Origin: a virus
Direction: 5' to 3' (one strand)
IMG/VR virus record: IMGVR_UViG_3300043786_001177
Span: 1-51,814 of that record
Length of the DNA: 51,814 nt
A program made the translations under genes and the position numbers. The notes beneath the pieces were generated by a model. The model was not told where the DNA came from. It was given only the letters and a program-made list of their open reading frames with translations, and made no database searches. Positions within the stretch are counted from its first letter, which is position 1, and each line of letters starts with the position of its first letter. Positions 6,384 to 48,562 of this stretch are shown here, one piece after another.

Positions 6384-8054
6384 TCAGATTTCATTGATAC
6401 CATCGACTGACGAATCAGTCTTCAGCCATATTTCTCCTAATTGGATCATTCCCATTCTAGGCACCTGATGGAATGGCGTCACAAGTCTCGGAACACGTGA
6501 CAAAATCGGCTTCAGTTCACCCAGCAACTGTGGATACAAATACGCCACCGCTGCTGTCACGTTGTATTGCCCAGGATCAAACTTCCGTGCGTCGCCTGTC
6601 AGTATCGTGATGCGATCCGAAAGCCCCGCTTCCGCCACTCGATGCCTGGCCAGCTTTGCCTGCTTCGGATCAATCTCAATTCCAACCGCCGTGCATCCGG
6701 ACGCCTGCACCGCCGCAATCAGAATTCGCCCGTCACCGCATCCGATATCCGCGAAGACGTCGTCTGCACTCAGTTTCAATGCCGCGATCACGTCCCCTGT
6801 CATCGCCTCTGTCGACGGCGCCTGAACGGCCGCGATCGCCTGCACAACAGGAACCGTCCGGCTCTTGCGATACTGCGACTGCAGAGAACGAATTCCCTGG
6901 CACATCTGGCAATTGCAGTTCCGCTGGTATGTCTCAAGATCAATTCGGCCCCACACCGTGGTCACAACCGGCAAACGCCCAGTCGTCGACACCACCGATC
7001 GATACACGTCACTGAAGCCCCCTGTCGACGTCTGTGGCTTCCCTGCGGCCTCTGACAACTCTCTGATCGACTTTTCAATCGAATCGGCTGTCCATTCGCC
7101 CTGTGCTGTCCTGCGCAGAACGCCATCGACAAAGTAACAAAGAAACGGCGTGCTTTTGCCTTTGGCCCACTTCAACGCTTCAGCCGCTTCCGACGTGGCT
7201 GCAAGATCGCGAATCTTGATGACCTGAATCTGCGACTCTGTGCCATCCTGACCGACCCACCCTGCATTCGCTTTTGCAACCAGATAGCCGCGTCGTTCCA
7301 GTTCGGGTAACACATTGTCGATCATCCTTTTGCATGGCTGACAAGAATCCTGCGACACCATCACCAGTTTGACCGACTTCGCCTGCGACTCTGTGAACCC
7401 CGACACCTTTGGCGCGTCCGGTTTACTCGCCGCTGCCACCGGTTTTTCCAGTGCCTGAATCCGTTGTTCAAGGATTTCAATCTTGCTCACGATCTTGACT
7501 TGATTGTCAGTCAGATCCTCAACCACTTTCGTCAACCGGTCCAGGTTCTCGCCGTCCGTGTCTTCCACAAACTCAGTCGACTCAGCTTCAGACGCTGGCG
7601 CTGGCGACGACACCGCTGGCTCTGGAACGTCTTCCGGCATCGGAACGCCAGGATCAGGTTCGGAAGACTCTTTTCCGCTTTCCGGAACAACTGTTTCCGC
7701 CGTTTCAGAAACGCCCTGATCGGCTCCGGAAGATTCCTTTCCGGTTTCCGGAAGAACTGTTTCCGCCGCCTCGCTGGATGCCTTTTTGCATGTGCAATTC
7801 GGCTGACACGCACACGGCCCCAGTCCGTCACCAGATCGCCCCGTCCCGCCGCACAGACACTTCGCTGGACCATTGTCCGGAACACTCGGAGTCGGCTTTT
7901 CCCGCCCGTCCGCATTCGCGTTGATCCACAGCAAGACTTTTCCATCAAGCACAGTCTGCTCATCGACCGGAATCACGATTACTTTCGGCGTCATCACCGC
8001 CTGACCACAACCCACCAAAACCAACGATGCCACCAACAATAACCAACGTCTCAT
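6384..8054 (-). CDS. Lipoprotein with thioredoxin-like and SAM methyltransferase domains
   Basis: The start is taken as ATG 8054 (MRRWLLLVASLVLVGCG), with AGGAG nine bases upstream. A lipobox (LVGC) puts the lipid-modified Cys at 16. Next come a Cys-rich segment (residues 65-91), an Asp/Glu/Ser/Pro linker with a 23-residue duplication (AAETVLPETGKESS and TAETVVPESGKESS), a short coiled coil (about 172-205), a thioredoxin-like domain with CQPC (238-241), a CNCQMC cluster near 380, and a C-terminal class I methyltransferase whose motif I is DIGCGDG (436-442) followed by GIEIDP. The fusion is unusual. It should be exported and anchored, yet the methyltransferase needs SAM, which is cytoplasmic, so that domain may be cytoplasmic through an inner-membrane route or repurposed. 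Confidence 0.75.
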   Translation of the reverse strand: MRRWLLLVASLVLVGCGQAVMTPKVIVIPVDEQTVLDGKVLLWINANADGREKPTPSVPDNGPAKCLCGGTGRSGDGLGPCACQPNCTCKKASSEAAETVLPETGKESSGADQGVSETAETVVPESGKESSEPDPGVPMPEDVPEPAVSSPAPASEAESTEFVEDTDGENLDRLTKVVEDLTDNQVKIVSKIEILEQRIQALEKPVAAASKPDAPKVSGFTESQAKSVKLVMVSQDSCQPCKRMIDNVLPELERRGYLVAKANAGWVGQDGTESQIQVIKIRDLAATSEAAEALKWAKGKSTPFLCYFVDGVLRRTAQGEWTADSIEKSIRELSEAAGKPQTSTGGFSDVYRSVVSTTGRLPVVTTVWGRIDLETYQRNCNCQMCQGIRSLQSQYRKSRTVPVVQAIAAVQAPSTEAMTGDVIAALKLSADDVFADIGCGDGRILIAAVQASGCTAVGIEIDPKQAKLARHRVAEAGLSDRITILTGDARKFDPGQYNVTAAVAYLYPQLLGELKPILSRVPRLVTPFHQVPRMGMIQLGEIWLKTDSSVDGINEI

Positions 8055-8096
8055 TTTCACGTACTCCTGCACCTGTGAACTGTCTGCAAACTCCGT

Positions 8097-9074
8097 TTAA
8101 GCCACCTGAGACTTTACGCCACCCAGTTTCGACCAGTCGATATTTGCGTTGAACCCGTCTGCACTGCTGATCGCGATACACTCCGCGCCCCGCAGATGCC
8201 GTTGAACGAACTCCGCAATCGGCACCAGCAGCGTTCCTGGCGGCAACAGTTCGCCCGTCAATGGATCTTTGACACGACCGTGGACGTCACCCCATGAATT
8301 CAGAATCGCTACGCATGGCACTTTGACGTTCTCCCAGAACGCATAGATCGTCATGGCATGCGGCCACGTGCCTGATGGCATGTGGAACCCTGAACTTGTC
8401 GGCTTCATCGTGTAGCCGGTGTTTGCACAGATGTGCAATGGATAGCCGTGATACAGAGAATCTCGCGTCTCATTCCAGCCGTTCGTTCTCGCCCACTGCA
8501 GAACTTTCTGCCCAGTCGCCTGCTCCAGATAATCACGGAACGACTTGCCTTGATACTTGCGATCGTCGCCCCACGCCTGACCCAGCGCTTTCGTGTACTG
8601 AATCCCAGCCGTCGCCTCGGCAATCACGCCATACAACGCTACCGCTTCAGCCTGCCATCCGCCGACCGAACCATCACCGCCGCGTAGCTGATTCTTTCCG
8701 ACCAGCACACGCCCCGTCGCATAATGAAACGGCGAGAAGAGCCACTGATATTCCTCGAACGCATCGTTCAAAATCGCCCCGCACAATCGCATCACCAGCG
8801 TGCGAATCATTGCGGTTGCAACACAATCCCCCAGCAACTGCGGATCAATGCGGATCGTCGAATCTGTCACCGCATTGACGGCCAGATCCAGTCGGATGTT
8901 TTTACCGGCGCCTGACTCTTTCTGACCGGCAATAAAAAATGGCTTCGCAAACTTCGAAGCCACGTCATCCGCCAGTCGTTGCGCCTCTGTAATGCGTTCC
9001 CGCATCGTGGTCGCATCGCGACGACCCCACCCGCAGAAGTCAATGCAATTTCCGGACGTGATAATCTGTGACAC
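8097..9074 (-). CDS. Papain-like (C1-type) cysteine peptidase
   Basis: The 325-residue protein uses a GTG start at 9074 behind GGGGCG. The catalytic set of papain-like enzymes is visible: Gln79 and Cys84 in DPQLLGDCVATA, His239 in TWPHAMTIYAF, and Asn259 in AILNSWGDVHG. The last of these is the classic NSWG box. There is no signal peptide. It lies between two lipoprotein genes and one gene from a holin-like protein, so a lytic enzyme acting on peptide cross-links is possible. Processing of virion proteins is the alternative. Papain-like enzymes are rare as phage endolysins compared with CHAP or NlpC/P60 types. Confidence 0.7.
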   Translation of the reverse strand: MSQIITSGNCIDFCGWGRRDATTMRERITEAQRLADDVASKFAKPFFIAGQKESGAGKNIRLDLAVNAVTDSTIRIDPQLLGDCVATAMIRTLVMRLCGAILNDAFEEYQWLFSPFHYATGRVLVGKNQLRGGDGSVGGWQAEAVALYGVIAEATAGIQYTKALGQAWGDDRKYQGKSFRDYLEQATGQKVLQWARTNGWNETRDSLYHGYPLHICANTGYTMKPTSSGFHMPSGTWPHAMTIYAFWENVKVPCVAILNSWGDVHGRVKDPLTGELLPPGTLLVPIAEFVQRHLRGAECIAISSADGFNANIDWSKLGGVKSQVA

Positions 9075-10810: not shown

Positions 10811-11341
10811 TCAGATGTTATTCAGACTATTGAACAGAGCAATATCTCTGGCGTAGTGCTGCACCACAAATTGCAGTTCTTGATTACTCAGTTCGGGTTT
10901 TACTGGCTCTTCATTCATTTGAGGCAGTGGCGTGGGGAGTCCAAGAAATTCAGCACACTGGGTTAACTGTGAAAACAAGAAATACTTGGCTTGTGGGTGA
11001 CTCAAAAGGCCCATGCTGTCGAGCGTCCACGTATGCACATCGTCGAGATTTTCTGCTATCACGGCGGCTGGTGGTTTCTGCAGTCTCGCACACGCACTTC
11101 GAAACCGCTCAACTGGATCTCTCACAACGACTGCAAGCGTAACTTCTCCGGGCACATTCTCCACGGACAGATCACACATTCCCTGCTGTAGATTCATCAC
11201 GGGATGCCAGCGTTTTCCTTGATGCGGCTCCCAGCTTTCTTGCCGAGCTTGTGGGTCGAAGTGCTTCAAAATCAAACTAAACAGAGTGTGACTACCGCTG
11301 CGCGGCACAAGAGCAAGACCGACAGAGTTATTATGCCACAT
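10811..11341 (-). CDS. Sulfotransferase-like protein
   Basis: The 176-residue protein starts at ATG 11341 (MWHNNSVGLALVPRSGSHTL) with an AGAGG site close by; an in-frame ATG at 11353 overlaps the upstream gene. PAPS-dependent sulfotransferases carry a 5'-phosphosulfate loop near the N-terminus, here VPRSGSHT (residues 12-19), and a 3'-phosphate motif, here RDPVERFRSA (74-83) with Arg and Ser in place. It is shorter than most family members. It lies eight bases after the oxygenase gene, downstream of the fibre genes, so a sulfate may be put on a fibre protein, its glycan or a host surface sugar. The substrate is inferred only. Confidence 0.7.
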   Translation of the reverse strand: MWHNNSVGLALVPRSGSHTLFSLILKHFDPQARQESWEPHQGKRWHPVMNLQQGMCDLSVENVPGEVTLAVVVRDPVERFRSACARLQKPPAAVIAENLDDVHTWTLDSMGLLSHPQAKYFLFSQLTQCAEFLGLPTPLPQMNEEPVKPELSNQELQFVVQHYARDIALFNSLNNI

Positions 11342-11349
11342 GACACCTC

Positions 11350-11922
11350 TCATAACTCGCTGCCTCGCGGTACACAAAACCCGAACATAAACATGATACG
11401 CGGGGTGCTTCCAAAGCAGGTCTCTACGTGGTGGTAATTCTCACTGACACTGTACGCCATCAAATCGCCAGCTTGCAGCTTGTATGTCGCATCTTCTACG
11501 TGGATCAACCCACCCGACTCCGCCGCACTTACCAGTATGTTGAACCGCAGTGCAACAGTGCCTGGAGCCTGCCAATCAGTAGCTGGATCTTTATGTCGAT
11601 ACACGTCGCCGCCATCATACGTGATGCTTACAACCACGCCGTCCTTGCCGTGCCCTTCGATAACTTCCGCCTCTTTGATCAACGGAAATGCCTCTCGCAG
11701 TCGATTCTGTATTGTGTAAACCAAATCAGGATACTGGATGTTTCTGGACATCCTGTTCGTTTTTCTGGTTATCACTTGAATGAACTCTTTGGTTTCCCAG
11801 TTTCCGCTGACGCCATCAACAAATTGCGTATCGGCAGACGCCACAGCCCAGTCCGTCAAAATTGAACATTCTTCTGGTGCTATGAAGCTGCGAACCAGTA
11901 AGACATGTTTTTCGCAATTCAT
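11350..11922 (-). CDS. 2-oxoglutarate/Fe(II)-dependent oxygenase
   Basis: The start is ATG 11922, overlapping the stop of the preceding fibre gene as TGATG. The facial triad of the prolyl-hydroxylase-like fold is visible: His110 and Asp112 in YRHKD, and a distal His at 164/165 in NYHHVET. Arg175 in TPRIMFMFGF fits the 2-oxoglutarate ligand. The 190-residue length suits a single double-stranded beta-helix domain. Such enzymes hydroxylate Pro, Lys, Asn or Asp side chains or small molecules. Translation coupling to fibre genes, with a collagen-like gene two steps upstream, suggests a virion fibre as substrate. Confidence 0.8.
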   Translation of the reverse strand: MNCEKHVLLVRSFIAPEECSILTDWAVASADTQFVDGVSGNWETKEFIQVITRKTNRMSRNIQYPDLVYTIQNRLREAFPLIKEAEVIEGHGKDGVVVSITYDGGDVYRHKDPATDWQAPGTVALRFNILVSAAESGGLIHVEDATYKLQAGDLMAYSVSENYHHVETCFGSTPRIMFMFGFCVPRGSEL

Positions 11923-13139
11923 CACGTTACCCCCCATTTTTCGTACAAATAGTTTCTAATGCCATTGATTTGTGCGCTCGATAACACCGAATTGTAAACG
12001 ATCAGTTCCGCTAATGATCCAGTAAAAGCACGAAATAAATAGTACGCAACATTTCCGATACCACCTTCAGCCAAACTTCCACTTTCACTTAATGCGAGAT
12101 TGTTGTTAGCAAGTATTATGCTACCCCTATTGGATGCTGATGCTTGTGTCATATCAGAGGAAATAGTTAAATTATGCCAAGTATCCATTGCAAATGAATT
12201 TGTGCTAGACTCTGCGAAGTATCTACTTCCAAATGAGTTCAGGTTTTTTGCAGCTACCCGTATATAATTTTTTTGGATATCAGTGCATGACGTTTTGTCA
12301 CAACTCCGATATGTAATTTCATTTTGCATTGCCCATCCCGGGCCTTGTATTTGGTTGCTGTCTATCGCTCCGGCACCCAATAACGACTGGGAAGTATTGC
12401 TGGTTAAGGCTGTTAAGTAGGATTTATTTTTGTAAACGCAAAATACAGTACCCTGCGATTGATGCAGGAAACTTAATTGAAAACCATTAGCTATATTAAA
12501 TAACGTGTTGGTGGGAGAATCTAACGTATTTTTGCCATTGAGCGATGCAATTTTATGCTGGCCGCTACCAGTAGAGCTATTATTACTCGTAGTTGCGTGC
12601 CTTGAGTTTCCAGACTTATCTTGAATTCGTCTTACTTCTCCATTGTTTGCTGGAGTTGATCCTCCACTTATTGCCGTGTACAACGTGGTTGCGTCAGCCG
12701 CATCATACCAAAGTTGCAATCCAGCAATTGTATTCGGTGATATAGTGCCAGACGGTGTTGCGGTAGTGCTTGCATACTGGCCAACCGTAAAATTTACCGC
12801 CGCCACACGTACTGTGTAGCTAATGTCGTTTGTTAGTCCAGTGATTGTATATGCCGGGGTTGTGCTGCCAGTTAGCACTGCTGTTAAGGCTCCTCCGGAT
12901 GGCGTATATTCCACGAGATAGTTTGTGATCGTGCCGTGCGTCGTAGCCGGTGCTGTCCATGTCAGCGATAAAGCTCCACTTTGCGGTTGTGCCACTAAGT
13001 TTGTTGGCGATATCGGCCCCCTTGACCACTTCCCCTGTGGTAGCATTTGCTGGGCTTCGCGCAATGAGAAAATTCCGCTGGAGTTAGTTGTCGTCCACGT
13101 AGGCAATAACCCAGTAATGATTCCTGCTTCTGGTCTCAT
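11922..13139 (-). CDS. Fibre/appendage protein with fibronectin III and LamG-like domains
   Basis: The 405-residue protein starts at ATG 13139, overlapping the previous stop as TAATG. Residues 1-40 include GIFSLREAQQMLPQGKW, a segment common in phage appendage proteins. A fibronectin type III domain follows (about 42-130: LVAQPQSGALSLTW to YTVRVAAVNF). The rest, from LQLWYDAADATTLY, resembles a concanavalin-A/LamG-like carbohydrate-binding domain ending in GIRNYLYEKWGVT. It is probably a receptor-binding appendage. The LamG-like part is visibly richer in A and T than neighbouring genes, which suggests recent acquisition. Confidence 0.75.
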   Translation of the reverse strand: MRPEAGIITGLLPTWTTTNSSGIFSLREAQQMLPQGKWSRGPISPTNLVAQPQSGALSLTWTAPATTHGTITNYLVEYTPSGGALTAVLTGSTTPAYTITGLTNDISYTVRVAAVNFTVGQYASTTATPSGTISPNTIAGLQLWYDAADATTLYTAISGGSTPANNGEVRRIQDKSGNSRHATTSNNSSTGSGQHKIASLNGKNTLDSPTNTLFNIANGFQLSFLHQSQGTVFCVYKNKSYLTALTSNTSQSLLGAGAIDSNQIQGPGWAMQNEITYRSCDKTSCTDIQKNYIRVAAKNLNSFGSRYFAESSTNSFAMDTWHNLTISSDMTQASASNRGSIILANNNLALSESGSLAEGGIGNVAYYLFRAFTGSLAELIVYNSVLSSAQINGIRNYLYEKWGVT

Positions 13140-13492
13140 TAAGAAATATCCTCATAAGAACAAACTGCTTCCAAGTCCCCATTCACTGACGCAGTTAGTC
13201 GTAGCGAATCCCCTTCTTCCAGATAAAGCGGTTTGCTCAACAAGTCAATTGTTGCATCTGCTGGAACACCGACTGTGAACGCTATGCGATACGCCACGCC
13301 ACTGCGAAAAAGATCAACTGTTACATCAGCAGCAACCGCTCCGTCAACGTTTGATACCCACAAGCCAACGACGCGCAACACTTTATTGCTTGCTGCCGAA
13401 TTGGTCAGAATCGCAGTTGCCGAAGTTGTGACAACCAAAACGGCTGTGCGACCGTAACAGGCTGTCATCGATGGTAAGTTTGGTGCAGCCAT
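13139..13492 (-). CDS. Small beta-rich virion-associated protein, 117 aa
   Basis: I start at ATG 13492 (MAAPNLPSMTACYGRT), overlapping the previous stop as TAATG; the upstream open frame lies inside the neighbouring gene. The sequence is a run of beta strands (AVLVVTTSATAIL, VLRVVGLWVSNVDG, RIAFTVGVPADATIDLL) ending in EAVCSYEDIS. This suits a beta-sandwich that decorates a fibre or trimeric base. It is flanked by the collagen-like gene and the LamG-like gene and coupled to both. The family is not recognised with certainty. Confidence 0.6.
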   Translation of the reverse strand: MAAPNLPSMTACYGRTAVLVVTTSATAILTNSAASNKVLRVVGLWVSNVDGAVAADVTVDLFRSGVAYRIAFTVGVPADATIDLLSKPLYLEEGDSLRLTASVNGDLEAVCSYEDIS

Positions 13493-14094
13493 TAGAATAT
13501 CAATCCTATTGCGAATGCCCGTGAATTTGAAACGCCGCCGCCGCCACCACCTGAACCGGCTGGTCCCACGAGTGATGTCGGTGAACCCCACGCACCTGCC
13601 GTTTTCGGCCCGTAGATTTCGCTCACTACCGTGTTGATGTAAAAGTCGCCATCGACGCCCAAACCGTTTGAGGGCGCTCCGCTGCCACTGCGAACCGTCT
13701 TGCCGTCAAGTCCGTTGGTGCCGTTGGTGCCGTTGGCTCCTGTCGGTCCTGTGGCACCCGCTGGTCCAACCAATGACGTCGGTGATCCCCAATTGCCACT
13801 AGTCTTCGGACCATAAATCGTGTTTGCTGCCGTGTTGATGTAAAAGTCGCCATCGACGCCTAAACCGTTTGAGGGCGCTCCGCTGCCACTGCGAACCGTC
13901 TTGCCGTCAAGCCCACTACCTCCACCTAATGGCTCGCCATCGGCACTTGCAGCCGCGCGAATTTCTGCAGGACTAAGAATTTTCGACGCACCGAACCCAT
14001 CTGCTCCAATCACGGAACCTGCAGGCAATTGTGGTGTGAAAATTCGTGAGAACAATGCCGTGATGAATGCTGGATCATTGCCTGGCTCTATCAT
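13492..14094 (-). CDS. Collagen-like fibre protein with duplicated module
   Basis: The 200-residue protein starts at ATG 14094 behind AAGGA. After a 60-residue N-terminal part comes a module of about 67 residues present twice: GLDGKTVRSGSGAPSNGLG, DGDFYINT, IYGPKT, then WGSPTSLVGPAG. Between the copies is a Gly-X-Y run of about eight triplets (GPAGATGPTGANGTNGTNG). It ends in a Gly-rich stretch and a short tail. Collagen-like modules trimerise and form thin stalks in phage fibres. Prolines of the triplets are in X positions. The oxygenase gene two genes downstream makes hydroxylation of this protein conceivable. Confidence 0.8.
   Translation of the reverse strand: MIEPGNDPAFITALFSRIFTPQLPAGSVIGADGFGASKILSPAEIRAAASADGEPLGGGSGLDGKTVRSGSGAPSNGLGVDGDFYINTAANTIYGPKTSGNWGSPTSLVGPAGATGPTGANGTNGTNGLDGKTVRSGSGAPSNGLGVDGDFYINTVVSEIYGPKTAGAWGSPTSLVGPAGSGGGGGGVSNSRAFAIGLIF
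13630..13910 (-). repeat. Near-identical direct repeat inside the collagen-like gene
   Basis: About 80 bases starting at 13630 recur at 13831 (offset 201) with a single visible difference. They encode the GLDGKT to DGDFYINT module. The near identity at DNA level indicates recent duplication or ongoing recombination. Confidence 0.85.
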
Positions 14095-15239: not shown

Positions 15240-15547
15240 TCTTCAGCTTTCGCTACGTTCAGGATTTCAAGGCATTGTGCCTTGAGAAACAACGGCATTC
15301 GCGGCAACAACTCCACGAACGATTTCAGTGACGCAAGATCTTCACTGTCCAATTCGATCGATTCGCTGGCCGACATTTTACTGGCCCAGGAATACAATTT
15401 GATCACATTCTTTTCTGCGGCTGCACCTGCAATGTGATCCGCCAGAATCGGCCCCAGTTTGACCTCATTCTCTTTCTCATCCAGCATTGGCTTTCCGCTG
15501 ATGAGTTTTGCCATAACATTGAAACTGACATTAAATTTCTTCGCCAT
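15236..15547 (-). CDS. Hypothetical protein, 103 aa
   Basis: The start is ATG 15547 (MAKKFNVSFNVMAKLI), or the in-frame GTG at 15556, which has a slightly better ribosome-binding site (GGATGG). The protein is mostly helical and acidic, with no Cys pair, signal or membrane segment. Its C-terminus (LEILNVAKAEE) overlaps the next gene start as ATGA. It may assist folding or assembly of the appendage proteins encoded on either side; the family is unknown. The 140-base spacer before it shows no gene I can support. Confidence 0.55.
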   Translation of the reverse strand: MAKKFNVSFNVMAKLISGKPMLDEKENEVKLGPILADHIAGAAAEKNVIKLYSWASKMSASESIELDSEDLASLKSFVELLPRMPLFLKAQCLEILNVAKAEE

Positions 15548-15688
15548 CTTAAACACCCATCCTGCAAGGCTTTTTGTTTGGCATATCGAATCGCCTTGAT
15601 ATCCGATCTGCGCACTGTGGACAACGTCCCTTGTTTCTCTATACGACGTTTCCGCTCCGTAGTTTTTCGTCTCTTGCTGGTGGAATTA

Positions 15689-16165
15689 TTATTCTTCAGA
15701 CTGTTGTTCAACCAGAGGCTCTGATTCCTCCACCAGAGGCTCTGATTCCTCCACCAAAGGCTCTGACCATGCGTCCGCCAATTTCGTCAGCGTGATGCCG
15801 CCCTGGCCAATTGTGTACTCAAATGCTGCCGCCTTGTATCGATCATCCAGAGCGCCGGGATATGCCGCCTCGATGAATTGAACCAAACCCGCTGCGGCTG
15901 TCATGATGGAAATCGCGGTCGCACCCAGTATGTCGAGAATAGACTGCATCTGTTCAACAGAGTATCGGCTACCGTTCCCGACGAAAGTGGTCACCGGCTG
16001 TCCGTCGACGTATCTGGTTTCGTACTGTCCAGACACCCCCCAGAAGTCTTCGTAAGAAGAAATAAAATGAACCCGATACGTTTCCTCTAACTGATTGGCG
16101 CGAAGCACCTTGTTCCTGGCATGATCGTGTGCATCGAATGATGCGACTGGTACTTCAAATGGCAT
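15689..16165 (-). CDS. Hypothetical protein, 158 aa, acidic C-terminal heptad repeats
   Basis: The start is ATG 16165 after AAGGTGAG. Residues 1-130 are a mixed alpha/beta domain (SFDAHDHARNKVLRANQ, YRVHFISSYEDFWGV). The C-terminal tail carries three near-identical copies of EPLVEES-type units encoded by an 18-21-base tandem repeat at about 15715-15768, ending in QQSEE. It directly follows the giant fibre gene by 27 bases. In many phages the gene after the fibre encodes a fibre-assembly chaperone; that role is possible here but unproven. Confidence 0.6.
   Translation of the reverse strand: MPFEVPVASFDAHDHARNKVLRANQLEETYRVHFISSYEDFWGVSGQYETRYVDGQPVTTFVGNGSRYSVEQMQSILDILGATAISIMTAAAGLVQFIEAAYPGALDDRYKAAAFEYTIGQGGITLTKLADAWSEPLVEESEPLVEESEPLVEQQSEE
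15715..15768 (-). repeat. Short tandem repeat at the end of the 15689-16165 gene
   Basis: The unit AGAGGCTCTGATTCCTCC (plus strand) with CACC or CACCA extensions occurs in tandem, about two and a half copies, coding for repeated SEPLVEE. Slippage could change the tail length. Confidence 0.7.
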
Positions 16166-16192
16166 AACTCACCTTCCCTAAAATTACACTCT

Positions 16193-19100
16193 TTACCACG
16201 TCGCGATTGCCGCTCTCTTCCAGAAATTATTTTGGGTGCAGACATAAACATAGTTCGCGTCCCAACAGATTTCACCTTGGTTGCCTGCTGCCGCCGCACT
16301 GGCTGGAGTTCTCGCTGTTCTCAGTCGAATCGAACTTCCCACGATATCGAGAATTGCTGTAGGCTCAGTAGAGAATGATCCGATCCCGATGTTACCCGCT
16401 GCTCCAATAATCATGCGGACAGCAGGACTTGTCGAACCTATCGGAGTGGTTTGAAACCGTATGTTGCCACCACATGCCGCTGATGTGAAATTCTCAGCGG
16501 CATAATAAAGGATTCCCGCTGAAAGATTATCGTGGAATGCTCCTGCCCCACCACCTGTCTCATAATATCCAACTGCGTGCCAAAACCCTAACAAGTCGCC
16601 GGATATCACTTTGGTTGGCGCTGCGAATGTGCCGTTGGCTCGCCTGTGACGCATACCGTTATGAGCACCATAAGTGTCGAAGTAGAGACTGCAAGTTTTT
16701 GCAGTAATGTGACCCTCAGCGATTGCTTGCCCGTCCAGTGTCGTGATACCAGTGACAGCAAGATTTGAACTGCAAGTCACTGTGTCCGAGAAAGTGAAAG
16801 CCGAACCGGACCCAACCGCATTGAACGTGACTCCACCCGTCGAACTGACCGTGGTTGAAAAGTAGTCATCATTGTCGTACCCAACTCGTAACTGTTCAGT
16901 CGTGGAAACGACATGCACCTTTGCAGCCGTCGTCACTGATGCCGCTCCAGTCCCAAATCCCCACAGGCCAGCCGATGTCAGCCGCCCGTGTTCTGTGCCG
17001 GTCACCGTGGTGTTATTGGCAGCCGTATAGAATCTAAGGAGTGTCGCAGCATTTCCGAGTGATGTTCCGCCGCCGATATTGAGGGTATTGGCGGCGGTTT
17101 CAGCGGTCCCAAAGAGCAGCAGAAACGGCTCTTCCGCGTTCGTGTAATGCCTCATTCCGAGACGCCACGACTTGTTCGTCGCGTTTGTCGTCACGTCGCT
17201 AAAAATTATTTGACCACTCGCGGCGTCTATATTCAGAACGCCGGTCGATGATACCGTGTGGCTCACGTATGAGTCAGCATCGTACCCGATTCTCAGTTGC
17301 TCTGTTGTACTAACGACATTCAGGCGACTTGCCGGTGTGGTGAAATTAGTTCCAATTCCAACCTTGCCGTCATCAGCAATGAAGAACCGTGTGACTGCTG
17401 CGGTCGTCCCGATTGTTGCCGTATTGATACGAAAGGTAGTACCCTGTGCCGTTGGTGTGTAGTCTTCCGCCGCATACATCGCCAGAGTACAGCCCCAATT
17501 TGTATGAAACGCCCCTCCGCTGTGGTATCCCGCCGAAGACCAGAACCCAACAAGATCGTTCTCCAGTGCTCCCAATGGCAATGCCAATGTTCCGTTCGCT
17601 CGTCTGCTTCGCATTCCGGCGTGAGTTCCATACGTGTCGAACCACAAATTAGCGTTACGAACATAGAGATTGGCAGACTCTAAGATTGTTGTATTTGATA
17701 AGGTTGTATTCCCAGCGACGGCGAGCGCCGAACTGAATGACGCAGCGCCAGTGTTTGTGATCGTCAACCACGGTGTGATCGTACTGCTACCGTTCGAGTA
17801 TCCACCCAGTGTGATGCCTCTGAGCGTACCGCCACCACTTCCATTTTGCGGACCGATTTCGACATTCGCCCCTGGTCTGGCATAGATCTGCAGGAATTCA
17901 TAAGACGACGCCGATGTTGCTATGCCGTAAACTCGGAACGTTTGTGCATTAACCGAGTTCTTCACGGCGAAGGTATTAGCTGCATCGCGACAAAGTACAA
18001 CATCTCCCCCCAGAGAAATTAAACCCGACACCGAAAAATTCATGGTTGCTGAAAGGTCTGAGGTAAACGTCTTTGCTCCGGCGAACGTCTGCGTGCCAGT
18101 GGTCACTACTCCACGCGCTGTTGCGCTTGCATTAGGCAGGTGATAAATGATGGTGTTTCCAGACAGCACAACGTTGAAGTCAGTTCCGGTGGTGCCCGTA
18201 TTAAACGAGTTGTCGCCGGTATTCATTCCAATCAGTCCAAGATCGGTTTTCAGCGTTGCCAGCGTCTGCACTTCCGGTGCACCAGTGCCAGCCGTTTTTC
18301 TGTAGAACACGCTGGCCGTTGCCATGTTTGCCATCTTGGCCAATGTGACAGATGAGTTTGCAATGGTTGTTGCAAACGATCCTGTGCCCGTTCCCGTCAC
18401 GTCGCCGGTGAGCGTGATCGTCTGGTCGCCGCTGTTTGTTCCGGTCAAGCCCAGATCAGTTTTCAGCGTCGCCAGCGTCTGAACTTCCGGTGTACCATTG
18501 CCAGCCGTTTTTCTGTAGAACACGCTGGCCGTTGCCACGTTGGCCATCTTGGCAAGTGTGACCGCCCCCGCCACGATCGTTGTCGTGAACGCTCCTGTCC
18601 CAACTCCCGAGACATCCCCGCTTAAATTTATCGTCTGATCGCCGGTGTTCGTTCCGGTCAAGTCCAGATCGGTTTTCAGCGTCGCCAGCGTCTGAACTTG
18701 AGGAACCCCTGTTCCCGCCGTTTTGCGATAGAAGACAGTACCTGTCGCAACGTTGGACATCTTTTCGAGTGTTACTGCTCGATCGGCAATCGTCGTGGTG
18801 AAAGAACCAGTGCCCGTGCCAGTGACATCGCCGGTCAGCGTGATTGTCTGATCTCCGCTGTTTGTCCCGGTTAGCCCCAGGAATGTTTTGAACGATGACA
18901 GGTCACATTGCTGCATCGGACCAATACCAGCAGAGAATCTGTAGTAAAGAGTTCCTGAAGCACTATGCTCAAACTTATTATGGTTGATCGAACCATCCGG
19001 AATTGTTGTTGCGAATGACCCCGTTCCAGATCCAGTGACAGCGCCTGTCAGCGTGATTGTCTGATCCCCGGTGTTCGTTCCTGACAGATTGCTGGCGGTG

Positions 19101-24503: not shown

Positions 24504-26330
24504 TCAGTCCCGCGACGTATCAAACTCATCGCCAGTGAAGTGATCGGCGGTGACGCCGCGATGCAACAATCGTTTCCACCAGCCATTGTCAGCCGCCTTG
24601 CAGTTGGCCGCGAACTCCACATCGAAGAATTTGTGCGGCCCATCGCCGGACAATGGGAAACGTCTTAGCAGTGATCGACGTGTCAGAAGCAAACCGAACC
24701 CTGTCCCGTCAACCTCTTCGATCCCTTCACCGTGAAGACTTGAGAACGATTCATTTCCGAGAAACGGAACTCTGAATGCACAGCACTTGTCTGACTGATA
24801 CCGCTGCCTGTAGACGCCGGAAACGCCTGACACCCATGGCCCCATTTCTCTCAGCAACAGTTCGATGGCGTTCTTCTGATGCGGCACCACATCGTCTTCG
24901 ATAATGACCGCGTATTCGGTCCCCAGCAGTCTGATTGCGGTGTTGTAGACTGCACCCACGGCCGCTTCAACGGCTTTGCTGACACCTGGATTGTTCCGCC
25001 GTTCTTTGTCAGCCAGATTCTTCACGCCAGCGTCAATTCGCTCAATCTGAATTGACCCCTGCCAGTCCTCAAGTCCCAGCATGGCGGTTGTCAGTGGCGC
25101 GTGATACGAATTGATGATCATCAGCCTGAGTTGATGCAGTGGCCACGTCTGTGACGACAGCCACGCTCTGAGTTTTCCCCAGACACTCCATCGCCCACTG
25201 AACGCGATCACGATTGTCAGAGTTTCATTCTCGAAGTCCGCATCGTTCCAGTACACATTGTTCGGCCGCAACGACATGTTGTTGCCGTGCATCCGGTAGG
25301 ACAAAGGCGTGTTCATCTTTTTGGCGATCCATGCGCCAGAACGCAGAATTGCTTTTGCGATCCTCCAGTCCTGCGACCAGCACTTTGAACCGTCGATCTT
25401 TCCGCCACGGAACACCAACGACTGATGCACCAGTTCTGTGCGAATTACAGACCCTGCGCTCACCCAGTTTCGCTGTTCAATGTCGTCCGCTGTCAACTGA
25501 AACGGCGCTCGCTCTGTCCCGTGCGCTGGACCTGATGCGCCGCCAAAGTATTCCAAATGCGGATATACGATCGCAATCCGACGATCCTCTTTGAAGACTG
25601 TCATCGCGTCTGCGAAGTAGTTTTCCGGAATCATGTCGTCCGCATCGATGAATGCCACGTACGTGCTGGTGACATGAGAAAGCCCGATGCCTCTGGCTTC
25701 ATGCACGTCCCGCACTTCACATCGAACGTACTGCACGCCTTCGAACTGATCGACGATTTCTTTCGGATTGTCCGTGCTGGAGTCGTCAACCACGATGATC
25801 TGCGAGACAGATTTCCGCTGTGCTTTGATTGACTGCAGACACTCGCCAAGAAATCGTGCGTAGTTGTGGCATGGAACAACAACTGAAATTGTTGTCGTGT
25901 CGAGTTCAACGATTCGCGTGACAGAAGATTCTTCACGATGCACGCAGGTCTCGCATACCTGCAATGCCTGCGACTCTGGTGTTCCAACAACAGACGCCAG
26001 CTTTCTTTTGTTCTGCTCTGTTGCAATGCAATCAATCTGCAGCTTCCTGCAGATCCATAGTTGTGGTGAACCGCAACAGACGTTCCTTGCTGACCCTCGG
26101 TGAATGCATGGAACTGGATCTGGGAGCACTACAGCAGCAGACTGAACCGGGGATGGCGGGCCGATCGCGATCAGTTCAAACTCGGTTTTCTGCCGCGTCA
26201 ACTCATCGCCAATTGCTTCAGTCACCACCCTGCGCGATCCATCCCCAGCCAAACTCCCGAGTTTGGCACCGACGTGTTTTTTAACAAATTCCAATGCTGA
26301 TTCTTCGCTGGTCCTACCGAGGCATAGCAT
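24504..26330 (-). CDS. Double glycosyltransferase (GT2-like, GT-A) with Cys-rich N-domain
   Basis: The protein has about 608 residues from ATG 26330; a GTG at 26342 is the alternative. A short N-terminal domain precedes a Cys-rich domain (CIHRG, CCGSPQLWICRK, DCIATEQNKRKL, CETC). The first GT2 domain is clear: TISVVVPCHNYARFL, QIIVVDDSSTDN and the metal-binding FIDADD. A second GT-A domain starts near LTIVIAFSGRW, has YAVIIEDDVVP as its acidic motif, and ends in GTGFGLLLTRRSLL. It should add two sugars or elongate a glycan using nucleotide sugars. Its position among fibre and tail genes suggests that virion proteins or host glycans are the acceptor. Confidence 0.85.
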   Translation of the reverse strand: MLCLGRTSEESALEFVKKHVGAKLGSLAGDGSRRVVTEAIGDELTRQKTEFELIAIGPPSPVQSAAVVLPDPVPCIHRGSARNVCCGSPQLWICRKLQIDCIATEQNKRKLASVVGTPESQALQVCETCVHREESSVTRIVELDTTTISVVVPCHNYARFLGECLQSIKAQRKSVSQIIVVDDSSTDNPKEIVDQFEGVQYVRCEVRDVHEARGIGLSHVTSTYVAFIDADDMIPENYFADAMTVFKEDRRIAIVYPHLEYFGGASGPAHGTERAPFQLTADDIEQRNWVSAGSVIRTELVHQSLVFRGGKIDGSKCWSQDWRIAKAILRSGAWIAKKMNTPLSYRMHGNNMSLRPNNVYWNDADFENETLTIVIAFSGRWSVWGKLRAWLSSQTWPLHQLRLMIINSYHAPLTTAMLGLEDWQGSIQIERIDAGVKNLADKERRNNPGVSKAVEAAVGAVYNTAIRLLGTEYAVIIEDDVVPHQKNAIELLLREMGPWVSGVSGVYRQRYQSDKCCAFRVPFLGNESFSSLHGEGIEEVDGTGFGLLLTRRSLLRRFPLSGDGPHKFFDVEFAANCKAADNGWWKRLLHRGVTADHFTGDEFDTSRD

Positions 26331-26381
26331 GACTACAAACACTCCGGGGAAATGACTGACGTTAGAAATAGGGCAAAGACA

Positions 26382-47689: not shown

Positions 47690-48562
47690 CTACCGAGTAG
47701 CCGCCTCATTCGCCAATACCGCGATGGCTTCTTTTGCCGTCGCACGGTGAATCGCCAGGACTGGCGTGATCTTTCCAGCCTTTGTGCGCTGGTAACCCCC
47801 TGCGAAGTTCCAGACGACTGGCAAGCCCAGTTCCATGCACCGGTCGAAGACGAAGCGATCACGTGCCTTCAGTTGAGCATCCGTCATCTGTCCACCGAGT
47901 GGATCATTGATATGCGGATCTGCCCCGGCCTGGTAAATCAGCAGTCCTACGCCGTCCGCTGCGGACTTTGTCAGGAACGCATCGATATCGAACAACAAGT
48001 CTTTCTGTCCTTCGGCGCCTCGATCGAATCTGTGCCCGCCGTACGTCCAGTGTTTCACTGTGTCCGTCAGTTCCAGCGTTTCGATAATATCTTCCGTGCC
48101 GTCACCATAGTGCTGATCGCAGTCCAGAATCGCGACCTTGCGGCACAACCCTTCGTTGATCACGGTCCGTGCGGCGACGATCAGCCCGTTGAACGTGCAA
48201 AACGCCCCGTTGTAACCATGGCCAGCGTGATGGAATCCGGACGTCGGAGAACAGACGATCCGGTTTTCAAACGCGGCTCGGCTTGCGGCGACCAAAGAAC
48301 CGACCGTCACGCGGCAAGACTGCGTGACTTCCGGAATGCAATTGCCGTGACCGTTGGACTTCTGTCCTGCCAGAACTTTCTCGGCGAACTTTCGATCATG
48401 TGCAAGCGCCAGATCCTCGATCGTTGCGGCTTCGAACTCGCTGACGATCTCAATGTCCAGCCCGCGTTTCTGCCAGTCTGCAACACACTGCGCTGGCTTC
48501 TTTGCTGACGGTGAATAGCCGCCAGAATCCACTGACATATCATCACGAAAAAATACCTGCAT
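47690..48562 (-). CDS. Zinc-dependent deacetylase, HDAC / acetylpolyamine amidohydrolase superfamily
   Basis: The 290-residue enzyme starts at ATG 48562 behind GGGGGGTG. All key residues of the superfamily are present: the general-base pair His111-His112 in SGFHHAGHGYN, zinc ligands Asp149 and His151 in ILDCDQHYGDGTEDI, the third ligand Asp215 in QAGADPHINDPLGG, and the catalytic Tyr257 in FAGGYQ. The family removes acetyl groups from lysine side chains or polyamines. The length is a little shorter than bacterial amidohydrolases (about 340). It lies between a small charged gene and the 2H-like gene, in the capsid region. Target unknown. Confidence 0.9.
   Translation of the reverse strand: MQVFFRDDMSVDSGGYSPSAKKPAQCVADWQKRGLDIEIVSEFEAATIEDLALAHDRKFAEKVLAGQKSNGHGNCIPEVTQSCRVTVGSLVAASRAAFENRIVCSPTSGFHHAGHGYNGAFCTFNGLIVAARTVINEGLCRKVAILDCDQHYGDGTEDIIETLELTDTVKHWTYGGHRFDRGAEGQKDLLFDIDAFLTKSAADGVGLLIYQAGADPHINDPLGGQMTDAQLKARDRFVFDRCMELGLPVVWNFAGGYQRTKAGKITPVLAIHRATAKEAIAVLANEAATR

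Follow-up and report, generated by a model that had tools for sequence, protein, structure and literature searches.

What would an oxygenase and a sulfotransferase do among the fibre genes of a tailed phage? This question is raised by a 51.8-kb virus record (IMG/VR IMGVR_UViG_3300043786_001177; its whole length of 51,814 nt is called the window here), which, judged by matches to a major head protein and a minor tail protein, is a tailed phage. Five genes follow each other on its minus strand in the order collagen-like protein, small structural protein, 405-aa fibre, oxygenase (OX) and sulfotransferase (ST), and all junctions from the collagen-like gene to ST are stop/start overlaps: TAATG, TAATG, TGATG and ATGA. 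A preliminary description made from the sequence had read OX and ST as a fibre-modification cassette with the collagen-like protein as candidate substrate. We found that the two enzymes form an obligate pair among fibre genes and that the neighbouring fibres commonly carry a hexapeptide tag, C-x-K-x-[G/S]-C, whose lysine would be the modified residue. Tags, motifs and counts in relatives are taken from IMG/VR contigs, labelled L001 and so on.

OX (11350..11922, minus strand; 190 aa) bears the HKD...H...R signature of a 2-oxoglutarate (2OG)-Fe(II) oxygenase of the hydroxylase type. As described previously, the fibre gene ends in a TGATG whose ATG (11922) opens OX; the genes, the motifs and the coupling are real. 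Numbered from this start, the motif and its arginine are located at His110-x-Asp112, His164 and Arg175, and H110, D112, H164 and R175 are invariant in 56 aligned OX relatives. No Pfam match lies above threshold; a weak one points to WelO5 (E = 0.0055). PDB relatives were not found by sequence search and were recovered via the predicted structure model (predicted local distance difference test, pLDDT, 95), whose neighbours all adopt the double-stranded beta-helix fold (Z 15–17): PiuC-type oxygenases score Z 16–17, and algal and bacterial prolyl-4-hydroxylases, the collagen hydroxylase of PBCV-1, PHD2 and a BesD-like lysine hydroxylase Z 15–16. In WelO5-type halogenases a glycine replaces the metal-binding aspartate. 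Since Asp112 is present and invariant, WelO5-type halogenation was ruled out and OX is to be regarded as a hydroxylase rather than a halogenase. With the iron triad, the 2OG-binding arginine and the fold in place, OX is by motif and model a 2OG-Fe(II) hydroxylase-type enzyme; its predicted activity is hydroxylation of a substrate with decarboxylation of 2OG. As one domain of 190 aa to which no transferase is fused, OX differs from lysyl hydroxylase-glycosyltransferase fusions of the PLOD or L230 type. A scan of one genome per species yielded no OX relatives in bacteria or archaea, and the sole match in cultured phages was found in S-SCSM1.

ST (10811..11353, minus strand; 180 aa) displays a P-loop (PRSGSH), a 3′-phosphate signature (VVRDPVERFRS) and an invariant Trp-His-Pro (WHPVMN). 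Its family alignment (A12) shows invariant Arg14, Ser15, Arg74, Arg79 and Ser82, with an RSGSH loop and the pattern V-R-[ND]-P-x2-RF-x-S, as well as an invariant His46 in W-H-P-[IV]-M-N; this is the putative catalytic base, a residue that is often histidine in sulfotransferases using 3′-phosphoadenosine-5′-phosphosulfate (PAPS). That ST follows OX had been noted correctly. The eight-base gap assigned to the two genes presupposes a start at ATG 11341, which is possible, but the in-frame ATG 11353, overlapping the OX stop, is the better choice because the resulting N-terminus, MRGVMWHN..., matches those of relatives (MRGVCAIYN, MSKGVLWHN). The family profile matches the PDB sulfotransferase 3rnl with E = 9.5e-4. 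The best PDB neighbours of the predicted model (pLDDT 82) are nearly all PAPS sulfotransferases (Z 5.5–8.1), led by heparan sulfate 6-O-sulfotransferase 5t03 (Z 8.1), with 3rnl at Z 5.9. As these scores are moderate, ST likely, though not certainly, has the PAPS-sulfotransferase fold and would be a short member of that group. No ST match was found in cultured phages. A second type of sulfotransferase gene, Sulfotransfer_4 (PF17784, 1.9e-28), occurs in some relatives and not in the window; profile comparison gave no match between the two, and these genes were set apart as a separate family.

The OX clade comprises 23 other IMG/VR contigs with 55–70% identity and lengths from ∼12 to 381 kb. In all 22 contigs that have sequence beside OX, ST adjoins it or lies within ∼3 kb, often overlapping; the only contig without ST, L103, is cut at OX itself. 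Scanning reciprocally with ST, we recovered 22 loci, every one of them in these same 22 contigs and none elsewhere. OX and ST are thus an obligate pair, far beyond chance, that recurs in every testable relative. Gene order is fibre-OX-ST in the window, fibre-ST-OX in most relatives and ST-fibre-OX in L001 and L005, so the association survives rearrangement. A further gene, either a second ST or one of the Sulfotransfer_4 type, is present in some relatives. Looking for OX or ST away from fibre genes, a finding that would have spoken against the cassette, we found the pair among fibre genes in every contig, usually directly after a fibre of ∼440 aa. The cassette reading is therefore strongly supported, by the predicted folds of both enzymes, their obligate pairing and the constant fibre setting.

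In L011, L035 and L055, which belong to the wider OX family, OX is adjoined by unrelated sulfotransferases, and the pairing therefore seems to have more than one origin. Dozens of phages of this wider family also carry a 117–133 aa cupin-like protein beside OX (L015, L026, L028, L030, L105 and others), with the motif LRQMHFVKAGDxNEGHxHxxDHxTLLA... and often next to glycine-rich adhesin-like fibres; by this gene context, OX and the cupin-like protein are possibly another fibre-modification module.

On what would the pair act? The window fibre (11922..13139, minus strand; 405 aa), the proposed substrate, contains an fn3 domain (E = 2.3e-13) and a LamG-like (concanavalin-like) C-terminal region (Laminin_G_3, E = 0.034) and matches the virion structural protein phrog_10356 (9e-14); its C-terminal region had no match in cultured phages. 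Residues 280–285 read CDKTSC (12285..12302, minus strand) with the central Lys282 at 12296-12294, the proposed site of hydroxylation and sulfation. The same hexapeptide, C-x-K-x-[G/S]-C, is common to fibres upstream of the pair in at least four unrelated sequence families. It was noticed post hoc in four viruses, as CDKTSC (window), CGKSGC (L004), CDKVGC (L005) and CGKNGC (L007); outside this discovery set, it is present in 12 of 13 distinct viruses, in one of them, L090, as the one-residue-longer variant CGKSGNC. At the protein level, we counted 45 C-x-K-x-x-C sites among 129,000 residues from OX-clade loci and 3 among 267,000 residues from control loci. In the 4.5 kb upstream of OX we collected 39 open reading frames (ORFs) with a minimum length of 250 aa; they have 31 C-x4-C sites, 30 of which are C-x-K-x-[G/S]-C (0.01 expected for the tag from shuffled sequences); the lysine is never replaced. 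A search with the corresponding DNA pattern in 18 records (2.04 Mb in total) placed 28 of 39 matches on the coding strand 0.6–3.7 kb upstream of OX, where 1.15 were expected (binomial p = 2e-34); the remaining 11 equal the density in 22 control records (8 matches). Even in the 381-kb genome the tag clusters at the pair. Its codons differ among viruses, which indicates that selection acts on the protein. The tags sit inside fibre ORFs that are nearly all 400–1500 aa long, and not in a short leader with core peptide as in the precursors of ribosomally synthesized and post-translationally modified peptides.

Several further observations concern the tag and the fibres that carry it. In L093 (8281-8589) and likewise L094 (5048-5356), a 102-aa protein ends in NVKCGKDSCKTKVIHK, placing a tag outside a fibre, ∼4.6 kb beyond OX. 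At the end of contig L123 (8458-9123), a fibre fragment with CGKSGC is joined to a TnpB-like transposase fragment, the place of OX and ST being cut off. The window fibre (13139-11922) and the fibres of L005 and L117 have an N-terminal SGIFSLREAQxxxxxGKWxRGP-type peptide in common (relatives: SGVWTVREAESLRRAGEWPRG); it is perhaps an attachment or trimerisation element. Beside the wider OX family the tag was rejected, as the few Cys-Lys-Cys matches there fall either in genes other than fibre genes or in stretches rich in cysteine or glycine.

Homologous fibres without the enzymes allow the contribution of the fold to be separated from that of the pair. Jelly-roll-like fibres carry the tag in 6 of 6 viruses with the pair vs 0 of 7 contigs without the OX clade, although one of these seven, L117, has a weak ST-like ORF (38 bits) and ends soon after. 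For discoidin-like fibres the corresponding numbers are 7 of 7 and 0 of 2 contigs without OX. L004 encodes three jelly-roll-like paralogues, and only the copy adjoining the enzymes is tagged. L004 also has domains homologous to the LamG-like region of the window fibre, and these are without the loop. Accordingly, these folds do not require the tag, which goes with the enzymes. Within the tag, the lysine is invariant. A fibre of L090 has the loop SNKSGT, in which Ser/Thr take the place of both cysteines while Lys and Gly are kept, and in L001 the sequence GKGGS aligns with CDKVGC of L005 (the fibres are 67% identical), again with Lys and Gly kept and Cys lost. Because the lysine stays where both cysteines are lost, it is the likely target, and the cysteine pair probably staples the loop by a disulfide. 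The same jelly-roll-like fibre is also found without the OX clade in L118 (6333-7830), L119 (12622-14119) and L120-L122, followed by a different sulfotransferase-like gene (GYPKSGTTYL) together with two others, one radical-SAM-like (CNLxCxGCxHF) and one glycosyltransferase-like; these genes may be an alternative cassette for fibre modification.

From these results we consider it rather likely that OX and ST are a dedicated two-step modification system for receptor-binding fibres, acting on the lysine of C-x-K-x-[G/S]-C. We infer that the substrate would be a short exposed loop, probably disulfide-stapled, that is grafted into fibre domains unrelated in sequence. The side chain of the central lysine would first be hydroxylated by OX; ST, using PAPS of the host, would then sulfate the hydroxyl so formed, and the attachment surface would display an O-sulfonated hydroxylysine. 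In a lectin-like domain, a rigid exposed loop with a fixed negative group could be part of the receptor-binding site, and binding to the receptor would be tuned through the modified residue. The more specific proposal is of a new protein modification system in which a phage-encoded lysyl hydroxylase acts together with a sulfotransferase to install O-sulfo-hydroxylysine in a portable loop, C-x-K-x-[G/S]-C, of receptor-binding fibres from unrelated sequence families; we hold it tentatively, at somewhat less than an even chance.

The collagen-like protein (13492..14094, minus strand; eight consecutive Gly-X-Y triplets) had been the obvious candidate. According to the model of the preliminary description, it would be hydroxylated on Pro, Lys or Asn of its Gly-X-Y triplets and then sulfated, and the position of its gene in the same coupled run, as well as the resemblance of OX to the viral collagen prolyl hydroxylase vCPH (Z 15.8), fit this idea. 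The gene does belong to the run, but lies three genes upstream of OX rather than two. Taking a run of six or more Gly-X-Y triplets near the pair as the mark of an encoded collagen, we found one in 5 of 17 distinct viruses and none in the other 12; of the proposed trio, OX and ST are conserved (22 contigs) and the collagen-like member is not. As it is not conserved with the OX-ST pair, the collagen-like protein is probably not the substrate, it was dropped as a candidate, and we regard the model as very improbable. The reservation attached to it, that lysine might be the true substrate residue, has gained weight, since C-x-K-x-[G/S]-C with its invariant lysine is the sole element common to the fibres beside the pair.

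Three other explanations take account of the tag. The pair might modify another target, such as glycans (of the host or the phage), small molecules or a different virion protein, with the tag a co-inherited structural disulfide hairpin; the resemblance of the ST fold to heparan sulfate sulfotransferases and the glycosyltransferases near the pair in L001 and L004 and in the window at 24504-26342 would agree with this. However, glycosyltransferases do not accompany the pair constantly, the tag is present in fibres unrelated in sequence and absent from homologous ones where the OX clade is missing, and a disulfide hairpin gives no structural reason for an invariant lysine, so that we judge this explanation unlikely. 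Sulfation is known as an activating step for other sulfotransferases, and two cysteines flank the lysine in nearly all tags. OX could thus oxidise the lysine and ST create a sulfate-ester leaving group that a neighbouring cysteine displaces, yielding a Lys-Cys staple; but with the L090 fibre having Ser/Thr for both cysteines and L001 none at the aligned place, the lysine being kept in each, such a cross-link appears rather improbable. Finally, the tag may be hydroxylated only, with ST sulfating another group of the same fibre (the lysine amino group, Tyr or Ser/Thr). The varying number of ST genes and the aromatic residues that often follow the tag (Tyr/Trp two residues past the second Cys in 17 of 30 tags) would suit such a division. 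Tyrosine, common near the tag but not conserved, was discarded as the sulfation site; no other acceptor residue is conserved, yet ST and OX are never apart, and we give this version a slightly smaller chance still.

Several points weigh against sulfated hydroxylysine as the product and against the two-step scheme as a whole. The case is computational throughout. The 17 distinct viruses with the pair include several related ones and perhaps represent ten independent lineages, and the counts from the four discovery viruses are not independent because the motif was first noticed there. L001 is without the Cys form of the tag near the pair. The ST match is only moderate in score, and ST-like genes number one to three per OX, the extra copies being left unexplained by a single hydroxyl. 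No adenosine-5′-phosphosulfate (APS) kinase was found in 17 records, and PAPS must therefore be supplied by the host.

Between the collagen-like gene and the fibre gene lies the small structural protein (13139..13492, minus strand; likely start ATG 13492), which has TAATG junctions and is conserved in relatives (41% identity to L001:4093-4452, E = 4e-24). Elsewhere in the window, a family 2 glycosyltransferase (24504-26342; Pfam E = 9e-29) is encoded upstream of a 2401-aa repetitive fibre gene and may modify that fibre. The phage structural gene region contains a histone deacetylase domain protein (47690-48562; Pfam E = 5e-27), and a protein at 6384-8072 starts like a lipoprotein and has a thioredoxin-like region as well as a methyltransferase domain at its C-terminus. 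Near the tail genes, a papain-like (NSWG) protein (8097-9074) has a homologue in L001 (11543-13489; 29% identity in the matching part) that appears intein-interrupted, and L004 carries an intein-like protein in a similar place (15379-17319).

For 2OG oxygenases of cyanophages, roles in nitrogen metabolism and DNA repair have been proposed (PMC3037559), the function of viral 2OG oxygenases is described as being without specific study (PMC9602691) and phage sulfotransferases have been called unexplained (PMC10580990). Within open-licence papers we found no phage oxygenase and sulfotransferase acting on fibres, no such pair with a peptide tag and no occurrence of the phrase ‘hydroxylysine sulfate’. 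Many phage 2OG oxygenases and some sulfotransferases have guessed roles; here a concrete substrate is proposed, one lysine in one loop. If this is true, phages use chemical modification to take their attachment proteins beyond the repertoire of 20 amino acids, which explains such genes among fibre genes, and a short portable tag is available that an enzyme pair may modify in different protein scaffolds.

Both enzyme folds are ordinary, while OX, ST and the tag would be new as a system. The nearest sequence relative in a cultured phage, ORF 241 of the T4-like cyanophage S-SCSM1, is 26% identical to OX and likewise near tail-fibre genes, but has neither an ST partner nor a tag. PBCV-1 vCPH (5c5t) and the bacterial and algal prolyl-4-hydroxylases resemble OX in the double-stranded beta-helix, HxD...H...R and size (Z 15.8–16), whereas identity is 12–18% and no collagen or Pro-rich substrate is conserved with the OX-ST pair. 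The WelO5 halogenase and BesD-type lysine enzymes resemble OX through the weak WelO5 match and the BesD-homologue lysine hydroxylase 7jsd (Z 15.1); they differ in the halogenase glycine, where OX has the invariant Asp112, and in acting on small molecules. Heparan sulfate 6-O-sulfotransferase and the bacterial sulfotransferase 3rnl share the PAPS P-loop, the 3′-phosphate signatures and the fold with ST, which is much shorter (176–180 aa), marginal in sequence similarity and thought to use a protein acceptor. Nearest in logic is Mimivirus L230, reportedly a bifunctional lysyl hydroxylase-glucosyltransferase of virus collagen: there, too, the activity is virus-encoded, and a lysine of a virion protein is hydroxylated and the new hydroxyl conjugated. 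In contrast to the Gly-X-Y collagen, the glucose and the single fused enzyme of Mimivirus, the system proposed here would employ two genes, a sulfotransferase and a short Cys-flanked loop in tailed phages of bacteria.

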